Shown: positions 6,797 through 12,977 of the stretch, in pieces | How the letters are laid out: every line of letters begins with the position of its first letter | Numbering within the stretch: the first letter of the stretch is position 1 | Assembly: GCA_025927935.1 (NCBI GenBank) | Contig: JAICKM010000111.1 | Span: 1-12,977, forward strand | Direction of reading: 5' to 3' | DNA: 12,977 nucleotides | Source of the DNA: Chloroflexia bacterium | Lineage (GTDB): Bacteria; Chloroflexota; Chloroflexia; QHBQ01; JADMIH01 | Position numbers and translations under genes: made by a program | Notes under the pieces: model-generated | The model's database searches: none | Told to the model about the DNA's origin: nothing | What the model saw: only the letters and a program-made list of their open reading frames with translations

Positions 6797-9700
6797 CTAG
6801 GCCCAGTCACGTTCGCGCTCCACCTCCAAGCGGCGGCGGATAATCTCGTACACAGAATTGGCTAATTCGTCCAGGTCGCCCGCCGCATCGCCTGCGGTGG
6901 ACTCCTGGTCCTCACCGGAGGCGGCCTGCTGGACGGCGGGCACGCCTTGCTCCTCACCCGACAGGGCCAGCGCGGGCATCCCGGCGCCAAAATCACTATC
7001 GACCGCGGCGGCGACCACCTCGGCCCAGGCCGCGGCATCGCTATCATACTCATCGCTCCCGGTATCGCCGATCCAGGCCGGCGCCGCGGGCTCCGGCAGA
7101 GACGGCATCATGCCGGGCGCCTGGGCGCCCGCCCAGTTCACCGGCGGCGGCCCGGCGGCCGGGCGCTCCCACACACGCCGCGCGGGAGTCGCCGCCGGTT
7201 GCGGACTCGCGAAGCCGATGGTTTCCGCGACCCAGGCCATATCTTGCGGCAACACGCCGCTCGCCTCGGCGGCGGGCACGACAAAGCCGCCATAGGGCAC
7301 GGCCAGCGGCATCGTCTCCGAACCCGCAGCCGGCGCCCCGTACATCTGGTCGAGGGCGGCGATCCAGGCTTGCGCCGCATCGGTTCCGCCGGTATCCGCA
7401 TCGATCCCCGACTCGGCGTCGAGGTACGGGGCCGCAGCCTGGGCCGGATCGGCGGTGAGCCAATGGGCGCCCAGCGCGGGCACGAAATCGGCCAGCGAGC
7501 GCCCGGCCAGCGGCGCTCGCCCGCCCAACCCGGCGGGCGGGGTCCAGGCGACCGGCGCCGGGCCAGAGGTCGCGGACGGGCCGAACATTACACGCGGTTG
7601 GCCGCTATAGTCGCCAATCCGCGCCGGCACCGGTGTTCCACCCGTCGCGCCCAATGTTGCCGGACCAAAGATTACGCCAGGTTGGCCGCTATAGGTCTCC
7701 ATCCGCTCCGGCGCAGACGGCCCACCCGTCGCGCCCGGCGTTGCCGGGCTGCCGGCACTCCAGGCATAAGCGAGGGGCGTTGCGGGCGGCGCCGCGTGCT
7801 CCCAGCCGGACGCGGCGGCACCGGGCAGCGCGCGCTCGAAAGCGCCCCAGATGCGGCTCCACAGACCCTCTTGCCCGGCGGTGCTCAACGCTGTCACCGG
7901 GACCAGCGGAGTCTGGACCCGCGCCAGCACACCGGCCATCGAGTCGCTGTCGCTGTCCATCCAGGGCGGCCCGGCCGGCGCCTCGTCCATCTCCGCCGCG
8001 AATGGGTCGAAGGCGGCGGCGGGCGTGCCGGCCCAGGCGGGCGCTTCGGGCGCGGCGGGCAGATCGCCCGCCGCCGGAACGGACGGCATAGCGAGCGAGG
8101 GGCCGGGCGCGAGTAAGGGCGCCGAGGGCGCGGGCGGCGCGGCGGCTACATCTGCGCCGGCAGCAAACGGCGCGGGCGGCGCGGCGGGCGCGGCAACAGC
8201 CCGCTGAACGGGCATCGGCGGGGGAGTCGTCTCGTACCCAGCGGGGCTATCCTGGCCAGCATCGGTGGGCGGCGTGGCGCGGCGTGCCCAGGGCATATCA
8301 AGCGGCGCGGGACCGGCGGCAGGCGCGGACGGTTCCGGCGTGCCGCCCAGCAGGCGGCCGATGAGGGCGCTCAGCAAGCCGCCCATACCACTCACCGGAC
8401 GCGGCTCGACCAGCGGGGCAGCCGCCGCAGGAACGAGCGCGGATTCCGGCAGGGCCGGCAACTCAGGCGGTGCGTCAGGTTGCCCGCCGGTATCCAACGC
8501 AGCCGGCAGCACCGGCGAGGTCTCGACCTGCACCGGCACGCCGGCCGGCGCCGCGCCGTACTCCCCAGACGGCGGCCCGCCGACCTGCGCCGTGCCGTGC
8601 TCCCCAGACGGCGGCACGTCGAGGGCCGGGGTGGTGCTCGTAGCGGCGAACACATCCGCACCGGCAGAGATAGGGGCGGGGGCGCCGGACTCCGCGCCGG
8701 GGGCCGGGGGCACGGGCAGCAGCGCGGGCACAGGGGTCATGGACGCGGGCGGGGCCGCGGGAGCCGGCACACCTATCGTGGCGACCGGCGGGGCCGCGGC
8801 TGGCGGCGCTCCGCTCTCGTACTCCGCGACGCTATCGGATTCGGCGGCAGGCGGCGTGGCGCGGCGTGCCCAGGGCATATCGAGCGGCGGGGGACCGGCG
8901 GTGGGCGCAGGCGGCTCCGGGGTGCCGCCCAACAGGCGGCTGACGATGGCGCTCAGCAATCCGCTCGGCGCGGGCGCCGGGCGAGACTCGTCCCGCGGGG
9001 CGGGCGCGGGTGCAGGGACGGCCACCGGCGTGGCCGGCGGGGCCACCGGGGGCACGACAGGCACCCCGCCCGGCGCCGCCGGCAACGGCACGCCTATCTC
9101 GACAGGCGTGGGCGGCGCCTGCGAGGCATCAACGGGGGCTAGCGCCGACGGCGGCGCCGGAGCCGGGAGCGGGGGGGATGCCGGCGCAGGGGCGCCAGGT
9201 ACTTCGGCGGACCGGGCGGCCAGCGATTCCAGCGCGTGCCGGATCGGTTCCGGCAGCGGGATCACCGCCGTTACGCGATCCACCAGGCGGCTGAACAGAC
9301 CCGGATTCGCCGTAGGCAGATCCGCAGTTCCGATCACGGCCTCCGGTGAGGTTGCAGCCCGTGCGCGAGCGGCCAGCGGCATCGCCAGCGGCGTCACGTC
9401 TTCGGGCGGCGGGGCGCTTGTGATCGCCTCCGGTGGGCGATCCGGCACGGCGGCCTGCGCCGGATCGCCCGTTCGCTCCGCGCGCTCCGGCCCGGCGCCC
9501 GGCGCCTGATCCCATGTCCGCTCCGGGCGGGCCAGGAGATCGCTTGGCGCAACAAGGTCGCGATTGAGTTCGGTTGCCAGGTTGGCGGCGGGGCCGGCCC
9601 ACAGCGGCGCGGGCGGCGGGGCCGGCGTATAGGCCAGGCGGACGACGGGGGGCGCGGCTTCCAGCGCGGGCGGCGCGCTCTCGACCGGCGCCGCCACCGG

Positions 9701-11131
9701 CAAACGCGGCAACACGCCGGCAGGCTCCGGCCCACCGGCAAAGGCAACGGGCGGCGGGATTGGGGTATCCCCACGCACGGGCGCGGCCACCGGCGACCAG
9801 CGCGGCGCGGGTTGGTTTTGCGCCGGTGCTTCTTCCCGCACGACGACCGGGCGAACGCGCCAGACCAGGTCCTGATCCCAGCGCGTGGGCGCAGGCGGGG
9901 CGGCAGCAGCGAGCGGGCTTCCCGCAGCGCGCGGCAGCGGCGCCAGCGCGCCGAGCACGGGCGCCGTCACCAGCGGGGCGGCGGGCACGAGGGCCGGGCC
10001 GGGCGTGTAGCCGACCTGGATGCCGCTAGGCGGCGCGGCGGGAGCGGCGGGCGCCATACCGGCGGGCGCCGCAGCACTCCCGGTCGCAGCAGGCATCCGT
10101 TGCACCGGCGAGGCGGGCGCCAGGGCTGGCCCTGCAAGCGGCATGGCACTACCGGCAGCGGGCGGAGGCGAGACGGCGGTCATCGGTAGCAGGCTCATGC
10201 GCGGTTCGGCGGGCGGCGTAGTGTCCGGCGCGGTGGGTGCAGTCGCGGCCGGGCGGATGCGCCAGACCAACGGCGTCTCCGGCACAGGCGCCGGACCGAG
10301 GATGGTGAAGCCGGGAGCGGCCGGTGGAGCGGCGTCCTGGCCCATGCGATAGGCGATCCGGCGGGCCAGCGCAAGCGGCGGCGCCAGCGGTGCCGGCGCC
10401 ACGGGCGGGCGCGTCACCTGCTCCCAGAGCGGGACGCGCTGCACCGGGGCAGCAGGCGCAGGCGCCGCCGGTGGCATGGCCGTCACAGGAGCAGCGAAGC
10501 GCGGCGCCACGGACGGGACCGGCGGCACAAATGCGGCGCGGCCCGGCGGCGGGGATGCGTAGCTCGGCGGAGCGACGTTACCTGGCGGGGATGCGTAGCT
10601 CGGTGGAGCGACGTTACCTGGCGGGGGCGCGGAACGGGCGCTGCTCGACGGGGGCGGCGAAACGGGTGCGAAGGGCGGCGCAATCGGCGGCGAAACGGGC
10701 GAAGCGGGCGCGAAGGGCGGCGCGGGTGGAACCGGTCGCGCGGGCGAGAAGGTGGGCGGCGCGGCACGCGGCGCAAGGTACGGAGGGGCCGCTTCGCCCG
10801 CATCATCCTGCGCCGGGGCCACCGGGCGCACCCGCCAGACGAGATCCACGGCCGGGGGCCGGGGCGGCGCGGACGACGAGGCGGTGCTCAGCGGGGTGCT
10901 GGCGGGCGGGGTATATCCCAGGCGCCGGGCGACCTGCTGCCAGAGCACCGCGGGCCGCAGCGGGCGCGCCGCAGGGCCGGCATACGGCCCAGCCAGCCGC
11001 GCCAGGATCGCTTGCACCATACGTCCCGCCGCGCTGCCGGCCAGCATGACCATGCCGCCCGACGCAGGCGCCGCCGGACGGGCCGCGCCGCGACTCGCCT
11101 GGGGATCCGGGTTGTTACCGCGCGTGCTCAT
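6797..11131 (-). CDS. giant Pro/Ala-rich repetitive protein of unknown function in eCIS locus
   Basis: A protein of 1444 residues, mostly Pro/Ala/Val/Gly linkers and probably disordered. I recognise no catalytic domain, signal peptide or transmembrane segment. Short conserved islands interrupt the linkers. Trp/Arg motifs are VLWQQVARRLGYTP (62-75), DLVWRVRPV (96-104 and 421-429), LVWRIRPA (288-295), PLWEQVTRP (234-242), LDMPWARRATPP (750-761 and 944-955) and RVWERPA (1319-1325). Amphipathic helices include GLFSRLVDRVTAVI (611-624), GLLSA-x-x-x-RLLGGTPEP (about 724-740 and 918-934) and GLWSRIWGAFERAL (1089-1102). A tandem 28-residue unit lies at 1133-1188. The last about 25 residues (DLDELANSVYEIIRRRLEVE, then RERDWA) form a helix resembling the end of the DUF4157 protein. 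The ATG is 3 nt after the second tube stop, so the two are likely co-translated. It could be tube-lumen cargo, a scaffold or an atypical tape measure; all are inference. Confidence 0.85.
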   Translation of the reverse strand: MSTRGNNPDPQASRGAARPAAPASGGMVMLAGSAAGRMVQAILARLAGPYAGPAARPLRPAVLWQQVARRLGYTPPASTPLSTASSSAPPRPPAVDLVWRVRPVAPAQDDAGEAAPPYLAPRAAPPTFSPARPVPPAPPFAPASPVSPPIAPPFAPVSPPPSSSARSAPPPGNVAPPSYASPPGNVAPPSYASPPPGRAAFVPPVPSVAPRFAAPVTAMPPAAPAPAAPVQRVPLWEQVTRPPVAPAPLAPPLALARRIAYRMGQDAAPPAAPGFTILGPAPVPETPLVWRIRPAATAPTAPDTTPPAEPRMSLLPMTAVSPPPAAGSAMPLAGPALAPASPVQRMPAATGSAAAPAGMAPAAPAAPPSGIQVGYTPGPALVPAAPLVTAPVLGALAPLPRAAGSPLAAAAPPAPTRWDQDLVWRVRPVVVREEAPAQNQPAPRWSPVAAPVRGDTPIPPPVAFAGGPEPAGVLPRLPVAAPVESAPPALEAAPPVVRLAYTPAPPPAPLWAGPAANLATELNRDLVAPSDLLARPERTWDQAPGAGPERAERTGDPAQAAVPDRPPEAITSAPPPEDVTPLAMPLAARARAATSPEAVIGTADLPTANPGLFSRLVDRVTAVIPLPEPIRHALESLAARSAEVPGAPAPASPPLPAPAPPSALAPVDASQAPPTPVEIGVPLPAAPGGVPVVPPVAPPATPVAVPAPAPAPRDESRPAPAPSGLLSAIVSRLLGGTPEPPAPTAGPPPLDMPWARRATPPAAESDSVAEYESGAPPAAAPPVATIGVPAPAAPPASMTPVPALLPVPPAPGAESGAPAPISAGADVFAATSTTPALDVPPSGEHGTAQVGGPPSGEYGAAPAGVPVQVETSPVLPAALDTGGQPDAPPELPALPESALVPAAAAPLVEPRPVSGMGGLLSALIGRLLGGTPEPSAPAAGPAPLDMPWARRATPPTDAGQDSPAGYETTPPPMPVQRAVAAPAAPPAPFAAGADVAAAPPAPSAPLLAPGPSLAMPSVPAAGDLPAAPEAPAWAGTPAAAFDPFAAEMDEAPAGPPWMDSDSDSMAGVLARVQTPLVPVTALSTAGQEGLWSRIWGAFERALPGAAASGWEHAAPPATPLAYAWSAGSPATPGATGGPSAPERMETYSGQPGVIFGPATLGATGGTPVPARIGDYSGQPRVMFGPSATSGPAPVAWTPPAGLGGRAPLAGRSLADFVPALGAHWLTADPAQAAAPYLDAESGIDADTGGTDAAQAWIAALDQMYGAPAAGSETMPLAVPYGGFVVPAAEASGVLPQDMAWVAETIGFASPQPAATPARRVWERPAAGPPPVNWAGAQAPGMMPSLPEPAAPAWIGDTGSDEYDSDAAAWAEVVAAAVDSDFGAGMPALALSGEEQGVPAVQQAASGEDQESTAGDAAGDLDELANSVYEIIRRRLEVERERDWA
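7568..7735 (-). repeat. tandem 84-bp repeat in the Pro/Ala-rich gene
   Basis: Two adjacent in-frame units code residues 1133-1160 and 1161-1188. Both start GATGG, continue with a variable P-x-R segment, then YSGQP-x-V-(I/M)-FGP. The aromatic, Gly-rich YSGQP...FGP element stands out from the Pro/Ala linkers. The conserved DNA core is ggttggccgctata on the plus strand. Confidence 0.8.
8267..8965 (-). repeat. two ~117-bp direct repeats ~580 bp apart in the Pro/Ala-rich gene
   Basis: The copies lie at about 8267-8383 and 8849-8965 and code residues 917-955 and 723-761. Each encodes a small amphipathic helix (GLLSA, two variable hydrophobics, RLLGGTPEP), a short Pro/Ala linker and LDMPWARRATPP. 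On the plus strand both begin ggcggcgtggcgcggcgtgc. The region between is low-complexity Pro/Ala linker and includes a further 13-residue tandem unit (PPSGEHGTAQVGG then PPSGEYGAAPAGV, residues 840-865). Confidence 0.85.
10553..10624 (-). repeat. near-exact 36-bp tandem repeat
   Basis: Two copies code PPGNVAPPSYAS twice (residues 170-193). The only base difference I see in the shared core is one transition (ctcggcgga versus ctcggtgga on the plus strand), which suggests recent slippage. It is in frame and does not break the ORF. Confidence 0.85.
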
Positions 11132-11134
11132 CGG

Positions 11135-11584
11135 TTACCTCAGCAGTAACCCCTTGTGGGTCAACTTTAGCGTTTGCACCGCCGCCACGCTCTGCCCGGC
11201 GTTGAGTTGCGGGCCGGTCCACTTCACCGGCAGCGCCTCCTGGAACTCCCACGCCTGGGTGCGGTTGCTCTTTTGATCGACCATGATGATCGAGACATGC
11301 CGGCGCTGGAAGGGCGGTCCCTGGATCACCTGCTTGTACCAGTTCCAGAGTTCCATCGAGGTGGTGATGCCGTTCTTCAGGGTAATGTCGGAGACCTTGG
11401 TGCGCCCCGGCAGGCGGTGGACATGATCGTTCCGCCCGCCCTCCTGATAATCGGTCACTTCGGTTTCGATATCGAGGCCGGACACCTCCTGGAAGATCGC
11501 CTCGGTTATGCCGTCGATCTCGACGTAAAACCGGTAGGAGACCAGCACATCGGTCCGATTACTGGTGCCTGACACCATGGTCAT
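11135..11584 (-). CDS. tail tube protein, T4 gp19-like (Afp1/Afp5-like), second copy
   Basis: A protein of 149 residues, standard for eCIS tube subunits. Key stretches are SYRFYVEIDGITEAIFQEVS (16-35), GLDIETEVTDYQEGG, a LPGRTKVSDITLKNGIT loop, LWNWYKQVIQG, the strand HVSIIMVDQ, then W-x-F-x-x-A-x-P-V-K-W-T-GP and a terminal LKLTHKGLLL. These match the gp19-like tube fold that stacks in hexameric rings inside the sheath. AAGGA precedes the start region, 4 nt before the first ATG and 10 nt before the in-frame ATG at 11578, so the true start may be MVSGTS. It lies just before the Pro/Ala-rich gene and the hub genes, which fits the Afp5-type tube protein that begins the tube at the baseplate. 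Confidence 0.94.
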   Translation of the reverse strand: MTMVSGTSNRTDVLVSYRFYVEIDGITEAIFQEVSGLDIETEVTDYQEGGRNDHVHRLPGRTKVSDITLKNGITTSMELWNWYKQVIQGPPFQRRHVSIIMVDQKSNRTQAWEFQEALPVKWTGPQLNAGQSVAAVQTLKLTHKGLLLR

Positions 11585-11621: not shown

Positions 11622-12176
11622 TTAGCGCCAGCCGCGGGCGCAGCGTTCGCGGTCGGTCAGCAGTTCCTGCACGAGCAGGCGATACACCCGCTCGGCCACT
11701 TCCTCCGGGTCGGGCGGCGCGGGCGCCCGGCGCGCGTTGGGGGCCTGCTGGGCCTGCAGCGCCGCCGCTTCCACCGCCACCGCCCGCGCCTCGCCCGCGG
11801 ACAGGCCGGAAGCGGTCGATCCCTGTACACGCTGCACCGCGGGAGGCCGGCCCGCGGGCGCCAACAGCGGCAGCGGGGCGACAGGCGCAGCGCCGCTCTG
11901 CTCGACCGCGTGGGTCATTTCGTGCGCCAGCAGCGCCACGCCCTGCGGCGTCAGCGGGTGGACCAGCGCGGGCTGCACGTAGACATGCCGCCCGGCGGTG
12001 AAGGCCCGCGCCCCCACCCGACCCGCCAGATCGCCGGCCTGGCCCGTGTCGTGGACCCGCACATCGCTCAGCGAGCGCCCGATCAGCCGGCTCACCCAGG
12101 GGCCGGCGCCGGCCCGGTCGGGCGTGGGGGCCTGTTCGCGTTCCGTCTCGTCCATCGCCGCCTGTGCTCCGCTCAC
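11622..12176 (-). CDS. DUF4157 (eCIS core) domain protein, putative metalloprotease
   Basis: A protein of 184 residues. After a polar N-terminus, residues about 23-95 form the DUF4157 domain: IGRSLSDVRVHDT (32-44), GARAFTAGRHVYVQP (55-69) and LLAHEMTHAVEQ (82-93). The last contains HEMTH (85-89), an HExxH zinc-binding and catalytic motif. A Pro/Ala linker follows, then a C-terminal helix, EEVAERVYRLLVQELLTDRE (about 157-176), similar to the end of the 1444-residue protein. DUF4157 proteins are strongly associated with eCIS loci and are often fused to toxins. Here no second catalytic domain is present, so it may be a structural or processing factor or a small cargo. The GTG start overlaps the preceding stop as GTGA; an internal ATG at residue 8 (12155) is an alternative start. 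Family call is solid; function is unproven. Confidence 0.9.
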   Translation of the reverse strand: MSGAQAAMDETEREQAPTPDRAGAGPWVSRLIGRSLSDVRVHDTGQAGDLAGRVGARAFTAGRHVYVQPALVHPLTPQGVALLAHEMTHAVEQSGAAPVAPLPLLAPAGRPPAVQRVQGSTASGLSAGEARAVAVEAAALQAQQAPNARRAPAPPDPEEVAERVYRLLVQELLTDRERCARGWR

Positions 12177-12385
12177 TCTTCGACGTTAAGCTGCCGGTTG
12201 ATGCCGGCGATCTGCTCCACCCACGCCCGCCGCTCGTGGTGCTCCAGCTCTAAGATCTCCTGGCGCGGCCAGTGAAAATAATAGGCGATATAGGCTACCT
12301 CTTCCCGGAGCTGATCAGGAGGGTAGCCGGTTATCCCCCCGCCGGCACTAACTCCACCTCGAACTCGTGATTGCACGCCGGGCAC
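12173..12385 (-). CDS. DUF6760-like small protein; probably the -1 frameshift extension of the tail assembly protein
   Basis: The open frame gives 70 residues from a GTG at 12385, but only the last 53 look like a real domain: ITGYPPDQLREEVAYIAYYF (18-37), HWPRQEILELEHHERRAWVE (38-57), then QIAGINRQLNVEE. This matches the DUF6760 pattern seen in eCIS loci. The first 17 residues overlap the upstream gene, have no clear ribosome site and read as out-of-frame sequence. The conserved domain begins exactly at the codon (ATA, 12334-12332) that would follow a -1 slip on G GGG GGA. The expected fusion is therefore 132 plus 53, i.e. 185 residues (join 12729..12334, 12334..12173). Independent initiation at GTG remains possible. 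The last codons overlap the DUF4157 gene start (GTGA). Confidence 0.85.
   Translation of the reverse strand: MPGVQSRVRGGVSAGGGITGYPPDQLREEVAYIAYYFHWPRQEILELEHHERRAWVEQIAGINRQLNVEE
12293..12340 (-). promoter_or_regulatory. predicted programmed -1 ribosomal frameshift signal
   Basis: On the transcribed strand, G GGG GGA (12340-12334) fits the X XXY YYZ slippery heptamer, and its zero-frame codons are GGG and GGA. The zero-frame stop TAA follows directly (12333-12331). After a 5-nt spacer (TAACC) comes a stem: 5' arm GGCTACCCTC (12328-12319), a 17-nt loop, and 3' arm GAGGTAGCC (12301-12293). This pairs over 9 bp with one bulged C. Slippery site, in-frame stop, short spacer and stem are the standard components of phage tail-chaperone frameshifting. 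Frameshifting itself is inferred, not shown. Confidence 0.8.
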
Positions 12386-12729
12386 TGGGCGGGGATCGTG
12401 ACGTGCTCCGCCTCGTTGATGCGCCGGTAGAAATCCTGCAAGTAGGCGAAATCGGCGGAAAAGAGCTTCTCGATCACGCCGGTATGCACATCTTCGAGCG
12501 TGCCCAGCTTGGTGATCACCTTCGACAGGAGCACCACGGTCAGATACGCCTGGTTCTGCTTGACGCGCATATCGCGCATGGGCGTGATCTCGTCCATCGC
12601 GGTCGCCAGGCGCATCACGCCGTGGCGGTGCAGGTTGCCGTCGCTATCGACGTAGCCCCGTGGCAGGGTAAATTCATACTCGGTCTGCAACCCCTTTTCG
12701 GCGCGGGGTTTGCTGTTCGTGCCGACCAT
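12331..12729 (-). CDS. phage tail assembly protein (chaperone-like; G-like partner of frameshift pair)
   Basis: A protein of 132 residues resembling the small tail assembly proteins that follow tube genes in eCIS and Myoviridae-type loci. Visible stretches are TEYEFTLPRGYVDSDGNLHR (16-35), HGVMRLATAMDEI, an acidic/helical middle with LTVVLLSKVITKLG (63-76), FSADFAYLQDFYRRIN (about 89-104) and a C-terminal AQCPACNHEFEVEL. The C116-x-x-C119 pair, with H121, is a possible metal site. GGGAG upstream of the ATG supports the start. Located between a tube gene and the rest of the tail genes, it matches phage chaperones (lambda G, P2 E) that hold the tape measure during tube polymerisation. Its stop follows a slippery heptamer, so some ribosomes should extend into the DUF6760 frame. 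Function is by position and family resemblance. Confidence 0.88.
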   Translation of the reverse strand: MVGTNSKPRAEKGLQTEYEFTLPRGYVDSDGNLHRHGVMRLATAMDEITPMRDMRVKQNQAYLTVVLLSKVITKLGTLEDVHTGVIEKLFSADFAYLQDFYRRINEAEHVTIPAQCPACNHEFEVELVPAGG

Positions 12730-12821: not shown

Positions 12822-12977
12822 TTACTTGACGCGAGTCAGCTTCTCGTGCACGATCTCCAGCTCCTCGACGCCCACCTCGTTGGTCGACGAGTTCATCGAG
12901 GGGCCGCTGATCTTGCGCGGCCAGGCGCGGATGAAGTTCCAGCGGGCCACTTCGGCGCCGGTCTGGTCCACCATGAC
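12822..12977 (-). CDS. tail tube protein, C-terminal fragment (runs off the window)
   Basis: The last 51 codons of a frame that continues beyond the window, ending LTRVK and TAA at 12824-12822. The visible part starts VMVDQTGAEVARWNFIRAWP and continues with a W-x-F-x-x-A-x-P-x-K-x-x-GP pattern, then VEELEIVHEKLTRV. The same layout ends the complete tube protein at 11135-11584 (IIMVDQ, W-x-F-x-x-A-x-P-V-K-W-T-GP, LKLTHKGLLL), so this is a gp19-like tube paralogue. It is probably the main Afp1-type tube subunit, which normally follows sheath genes. It is followed by the long GC hairpin, consistent with high expression. Confidence 0.88.
   Translation of the reverse strand, partial: VMVDQTGAEVARWNFIRAWPRKISGPSMNSSTNEVGVEELEIVHEKLTRVK

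Follow-up and report, generated by a model that had tools for sequence, protein, structure and literature searches.

The slippery heptamer of the lambda G/GT pair is G_GGA_AAG. Lambda makes its tail assembly chaperone in two forms by −1 frameshifting, the short form binding the tape measure protein and the T part binding the tube subunit (PMC5009743, accessible portion), and we propose a similar arrangement for eCIS. For phage P2, the sequence record annotates E+E′ as a −1 frameshift product encoded after FII and before the tape measure gene T; gpE has 91 aa and gpE+E′ 142 aa, a C-terminal extension of 51 aa compared with 53 in the locus described here, and reportedly no hairpin accompanies the T_TTT_TTG site in P2 or in three P2-like phages (PMC3091744, accessible portion). 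The motif GGGGGAA ("fivetwo") occurs in actinobacteriophage chaperone genes, with about a thousand such motifs in phage data (PMC10274946, available in part), and dnaX combines a slippery heptamer with a downstream hairpin and an upstream Shine-Dalgarno (SD) sequence (PMC3711429, available in part).

Like its P2 counterpart, the eCIS pair lies after a tube gene. It differs from P2 in being encoded by the host rather than by a phage, in the usual presence of a G-run site, in a conserved hairpin and in the PHROG of the chaperone (508 in the window, 103 for P2 E). With dnaX it shares the slippery heptamer, the downstream hairpin and possibly the upstream SD sequence, although the gene and the heptamer are different and the SD sequence is tentative in eCIS. 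In the open-access literature, as distinct from subscription papers and preprints, we found no mention of DUF6760 and no report of −1 frameshifting in eCIS; the word "frameshift" is absent from the accessible parts of PMC8213781, PMC11566945 and PMC13277306, and the frameshift in the accessible part of PMC9022992 concerns tube Ig domains. The comparison of homologous loci presented below strongly supports −1 frameshifting, and we consider it very likely that the eCIS chaperone is made in two forms by a −1 frameshift into DUF6760, so that the interpretation offered in a preliminary description of this locus is supported.

The chaperone–DUF6760 junction and its genes

The window, the whole stretch of 12,977 nucleotides that was analysed, is an eCIS locus in which tube, CIS_tube, spike, PAAR, gp25, baseplate J, tail I and eCIS_core genes co-occur (Pfam). 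On the minus strand, the C-terminal end of a gp19-type tail tube protein, cut by the window end (12822..12974; PF06841, E = 1.4e-13), is followed by the gene for a tail assembly chaperone-like protein of 132 aa, the short product (12331..12729), by the DUF6760 extension (12173..12334; PF20546, E = 5.2e-12) and, immediately downstream, by an eCIS_core (DUF4157) gene (11622..12176; PF13699, E = 2.5e-17). A second gp19-type tube gene (11135..11584; PF06841, E = 1e-44) comes next, and further downstream lie genes for CIS_tube with LysM, spike (Phage_GPD/Phage_base_V), PAAR, gp25, baseplate J and tail I. Neither a sheath nor an ATPase nor a tape measure gene was identified within the window, whose end adjoins the upstream tube gene. 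The 1444-aa proline/alanine-rich ORF between the tube and CIS_tube genes (6797..11131, minus strand) has no Pfam match and may encode a tape-measure-like or cargo protein.

All junction elements lie on the minus strand. The zero frame reads CCG GCG GGG GGA TAA, with the heptamer G_GGG_GGA (12334..12340) in phase (GCG GGG GGA) and directly followed by the TAA stop of the chaperone (12331..12333), whereas the −1 frame reads GGG GGG ATA ACC GGC TAC CCT (G-G-I-T-G-Y-P) and continues for 53 codons from the ATA (12334–12332) to a stop at 12175–12173, giving predicted products of 132 and 132 + 53 = 185 residues. A 5-nt spacer, TAACC (12329..12333), separates the heptamer from a hairpin (12293..12328) that is the likely frameshift stimulator. 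The junction as first described is therefore real: the heptamer, stop and spacer, the entry of the −1 frame into the DUF6760 domain at ITGYP and both product lengths are confirmed. The GTG start of the 70-aa ORF that contains DUF6760 (12385) had been said to lack a clear ribosome site, and on inspection no purine-rich stretch directly precedes it; another in-frame GTG lies at 12376, and the junction itself has no canonical start codon.

A stem of 9 bp with one bulge had also been described; the hairpin holds, whereas its size does not, the minimum-energy fold having 13 pairs, of which the outer 7 are perfect, and two single-base bulges. The 63-nt stretch 12337–12275 folds at −24.1 kcal/mol, whereas shuffles average −15.67 (sd 2.8; z = −3.01), none of 200 reaching that stability, and the 39-nt stem region is more stable than synonymous recodings (z = −2.02, p = 0.023). 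At the gathering score, Rfam returned nothing within the window. Eleven nucleotides before the heptamer lies the SD-like sequence GAGGTGGAG (12352..12360, minus strand), a candidate upstream stimulator by anti-SD pairing, which reaches −10.4 kcal/mol and is not exceptional relative to synonymous recoding (p = 0.305). Across loci this signal is enriched on average, with p ≤ 0.05 in just 5 of 155, and because the enrichment fails locus by locus we do not claim the SD sequence as a stimulator.

The protein upstream of the slip site is a tail assembly chaperone as judged from its match to PHROG 508, "tail assembly chaperone" (E = 4.6e-6). It matches PF12322 (T4_baseplate) below the cut-off (E = 0.0075), and weak matches among 35 homologues are to PF12322 in 22 and to PF10109 (Phage_TAC_7) in 9. 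Its predicted structure reached a pLDDT of 58 from a shallow and 84 from a deeper alignment; a Foldseek search of the PDB gave no match at E ≤ 0.001, and the matches of the model to chaperones in structure comparison were weak and are a hint only. Sequence searches of solved structures gave nothing below E = 0.3 for the chaperone or DUF6760, NCBIfam gave no match for either, and tblastn of the chaperone in phages gave no match at E ≤ 1. A CPxC motif at chaperone residues 116–119 (12373–12384, minus strand), about 30 nt before the slip site, is invariant in 49 aligned chaperones and may be half of a zinc site.

Profile comparisons relate DUF6760 to the gpE′ extension of P2, of which it is the counterpart in eCIS, in keeping with the analogy to P2 E/E′ drawn in the preliminary description. 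The window DUF6760 scores 46.1 bits against the PF20546 cut-off of 27. Thirty-one of 38 DUF6760 proteins match PF06528 (Phage_P2_GpE), the best at E = 6.5e-6, and two exceed its curated cut-off of 23 bits (P0129 at 24.1 and P0130 at 26), with P0132 missing it at 22.7. The window protein scores 14.9 bits, so that it is related to P2 gpE′ without being filed as a member of that family. An hhalign comparison of DUF6760 with P2 E′ gave 96.2% and E = 2.4e-9 over 33 columns, with 4 sequences on the P2 side, and phrog_1756 is matched by both the P2 E′ part (E = 1.2e-25) and the window protein (E = 0.003). A tblastn search with DUF6760 in phages returned 35 records (E up to 10), and three of them, with E of 2 to 9, were inspected: two of these matches, one annotated GpE, lie between a tail assembly or unnamed gene, itself after a tube gene, and the tape measure gene, and the third is P2-like too, its neighbouring genes carrying no names.

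Frame, slip site and hairpin across eCIS loci

The comparative set comprised 178 loci: the window and 177 fetched loci, of which 80 came from genome contigs (the best 80 of at least 555 matches), 2 were viral and 95 came from five phylum-level genome searches (30 of 38, 19 of 19, 6 of 6 and 10 of 10 loci, plus the best 30 of matches in 119 genomes). DUF6760 was present in 177 of the 178 and both genes in 176. With L082 (no DUF6760 match; contig end), L125 (no chaperone match) and 12 identical junctions left out before counting, 164 loci remained. The −1 frame relative to the chaperone opens into DUF6760, a conserved coding extension, in 162 of these; the loci were sampled by score rank and are mutually related, and the counts are not independent events because homologues share descent. 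The exceptions are L013, in which DUF6760 lies in the +1 frame, still with GGGGGGATAG, probably through an indel, and L127, in which DUF6760 is a separate gene in the same frame as the chaperone. Ten further loci on complete, named plasmids of Cyanobacteriota, Pseudomonadota, Actinomycetota, Bacillota and Haloferax (10 of 20 listed among 34 records) were fetched separately, and all ten have DUF6760 in the −1 frame. Seven of them carry an in-phase XXXYYYZ or GGGGGAA and the other three GGGGGAG; a junction ATG or GTG is present in three of the ten.

Scoring of slippery heptamers at homologous junctions, as the preliminary description had suggested, revealed that slip sites are conserved across the loci examined and start codons are not. 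Under a tight rule (XXXYYYZ or GGGGGAA within the last 12 codons), an in-phase motif such as the G_GGG_GGA of the window precedes the junction in 154 of 162 loci compared with 19.9 expected from synonymous codon resampling, and elsewhere in the same genes such motifs occur at 48 of 17957 codon positions. In broader classes, 81 loci have a strict in-phase XXXYYYZ, including doubtful heptamers in five (CCCGGGG only in four, CCCTTTA in one), 74 have a run of five (67 of them GGGGGAA) and 7 have no motif. GGGGGAA is the motif of the actinobacteriophage chaperones, which are phage genes; as a counterpoint, it is not a strict XXXYYYZ, and the second tRNA would need G:U re-pairing.

The letters of the motif vary among loci while slipperiness is kept: G runs occur in 140 loci, T_TTT_TTR in 6, G_GGA_AAN in 6 and A_AAT_TTT in 2. 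T_TTT_TTG, as in P2, is present in five loci (three of Cohnella, L067 and L137) and T_TTT_TTA in L132; Paenibacillus L054, which has both T_TTT_TTA and a G run, falls outside the T class because G runs took precedence. The lambda-like G_GGA_AAT is found in L138–L141 and G_GGA_AAC in L142, all five found when the phylum of a Methanosarcina genome was searched, and G_GGA_AAC also in Haloferax larsenii.

The hairpin is conserved as well. Over 162 loci, the 39 nt from the GYP codon have a mean minimum free energy of −17.8 kcal/mol compared with −9.2 for synonymous recodings (mean z = −2.70, median −3.03; p ≤ 0.05 in 128), whereas control stretches of the same length gave mean z of 0.03 and −0.33 for the next two downstream (n = 161 each) and −0.30 upstream (n = 162). 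Broken down by slip class, a significant hairpin is a feature of 121 of the 140 G-run loci, 2 of the 6 with GGGAAAN, 1 of the 6 with T runs, in line with what is reported for the T_TTT_TTG sites of the P2 group, 0 of 2 with AAATTTT, the one locus with another motif and 3 of 7 without a motif; it is not confined to frameshift loci, since L131 and L147 fold without a slip motif. The distance from heptamer to hairpin is 5 nt in 118 of 155 slip-site loci. Codon choice in the 124 YP-type loci differs from that in the chaperone genes: GTA encodes valine 11 in 106 of 112 cases (8% in chaperone genes), GAG glutamate 9 in 83 of 84 (61%) and GGC glycine 1 in 66 of 66 (42%). TYA-type junctions such as L091 keep the hairpin in a shifted register.

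Pairing was counted in 45 of 107 distinct YP-type hairpins, hand-chosen for variety, a set without the T-run loci, poorly folding cases such as L050 or the actinobacterial type with its shifted register. In these, 91.3% of cells pair, compared with 31–60% in slid versions, and the outermost pair is not formed in 12 of the 45. Cells changed on both sides numbered 14, in pairs 1-36 and 12-25, where shuffles gave 5.2, and covariation scored 0.146 where they gave 0.096; none of 500 shuffles was as high on either measure. Two pairs in the same 45 hairpins carry a double change and 11 further pair types occur, neither figure being above shuffles (reached by 460 and 204 of 500, respectively); in most pairs a free third position faces a fixed first one, and few are therefore able to change on both sides.

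Frameshifting, coupling and other explanations

We found 38 free DUF6760 proteins, many of which begin with Met at or beside the position of the window's ATA; P0123, 96% identical over 76% of the query, has Met where the window has Ile. Because this is what an ATGA overlap would give, translational coupling became the main rival to frameshifting, with a free DUF6760 re-initiated at a codon overlapping the chaperone stop (ATGA or GTGA, or a rare AUA or AUC where, as in the window, these are absent). Of the 162 loci, 56 do have an ATG, GTG or TTG at the junction, slip motif or not, and 110 have ATC, ATA or ATT two codons before the domain, which is compatible with rare starts. However, 106 loci have no canonical start close to the domain, and in 66 the entire open −1 frame is devoid of one; of these 66, 65 carry a slip motif and L119 has GGGGC and a hairpin. 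Zero-frame stops are split among TAG (60), TGA (55) and TAA (47), and an ATGA overlap is therefore not a conserved feature; three loci have the stop 31 nt beyond the start of the domain. Coupling predicts neither phased slip sites, nor the change from G to T runs, nor the hairpin. Public annotation fits it poorly too: of five DUF6760 gene models, those of Nostoc, Pseudanabaena and Rhodococcus begin at ATA, ATT and an internal TTG, respectively, and the other two at GTG and, in Haloferax, ATG. As the explanation of this junction, coupling is unlikely. A Brasilonema gene table lists no DUF6760 gene, such tables being incomplete. Among the best 120 of 4617 matches there was one clean single-frame fusion (P0159), which counts against the frameshift reading. 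In both P0159 and P0166 chaperone and DUF6760 share one frame, P0159 being clean across the junction and P0166 seemingly shifted before it, and each may be a natural fusion or an indel.

The proposal that DUF6760 proteins are generally frameshift extensions stands for 155 of the 162 score-ranked loci; the others mostly combine a start codon with the lack of a slip motif, and at these DUF6760 is probably a gene of its own under translational coupling, so that the claim for all DUF6760 is too strong. Junction starts are present in 6 of the 7 motif-less loci and in 50 of the 155 slip-site loci, where re-initiation could add free DUF6760. Start codons without a slip site occur in L124, L126, L130 and L131, and also in L125 (chaperone not found) and L127, which lie outside the count of seven; all are from the actinobacterial search. 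It is therefore reasonably probable that the family uses both modes, most loci frameshifting and some lineages, mainly in the actinobacterial search, having a free coupled DUF6760, and single loci may do both. The hairpin is absent in L124, L126 and L130 and present in L131. Use of both modes is compatible with frameshifting in the window, of which it says little, there being no canonical start at that junction. A switch between frameshift extension and free, coupled gene is possible in L124–L127, L130 and L131. The homopolymer run at the junction also invites an explanation by transcriptional slippage, yet the G runs are just 5–8 nt or so, mixed heptamers such as G_GGA_AAT stand at other loci, the hairpin mostly follows the site by 5 nt, and realignment during transcription is cited for runs of more than 7 A or more than 8 T (PMC3711429, available in part), making this very improbable. 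Homopolymers are also prone to sequencing error, of which L013 may be a case; the same −1 frame despite differing run lengths in 162 of 164 loci and in all ten complete-plasmid loci leaves an assembly error or a decayed gene with a negligible chance.

Predicted roles of the two chaperone forms

We infer ribosomal slippage, its efficiency and the role of the two forms from conservation and from the lambda G/GT and P2 E/E+E′ precedents. Under the frameshift model, most ribosomes would stop at TAA and release the predicted 132-residue chaperone, while some, aided by the hairpin, would slip back one base on G_GGG_GGA and read through DUF6760, giving the predicted 185-residue chaperone–DUF6760 fusion. 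By analogy with the phage systems, the short form would serve as the coat of a tape-measure-like protein, with the rarer fusions bringing in tube subunits. A DUF4157 effector of Streptomyces davawensis is related to tape measure proteins (PMC11126660, accessible portion), which makes a cargo-coating role of the eCIS chaperone attractive. There is perhaps an even chance that a host-encoded cassette of slip site and hairpin is ancestral in many bacterial and archaeal eCIS operons, with DUF6760 mainly an extension and the ratio of chaperone to fusion controlling tube building around tape-measure-like or tape-measure-derived effector cargo.

If so, the uncharacterised DUF6760 family would gain a function and an origin, and what has been treated as a separate gene would mostly be a chaperone extension, whose public gene models can be forced, as their ATA, ATT and internal TTG starts suggest. 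Many cellular, non-viral genes, some of them archaeal, would be added to those with programmed frameshifting, and the stoichiometry of eCIS assembly would become directly testable.

In the phylum of G006, DUF6760 was found in 119 of 282 sampled genomes, far above the other four phyla sampled. The chaperone–DUF6760 pair is also carried on plasmids typed as conjugative, in Nostoc (L184) and Rhodococcus (L188). Finally, six metagenome proteins (P0160–P0165) have 249–251 aa, and the two that were read, P0160 and P0162, each contain two tandem chaperone domains in one ORF.
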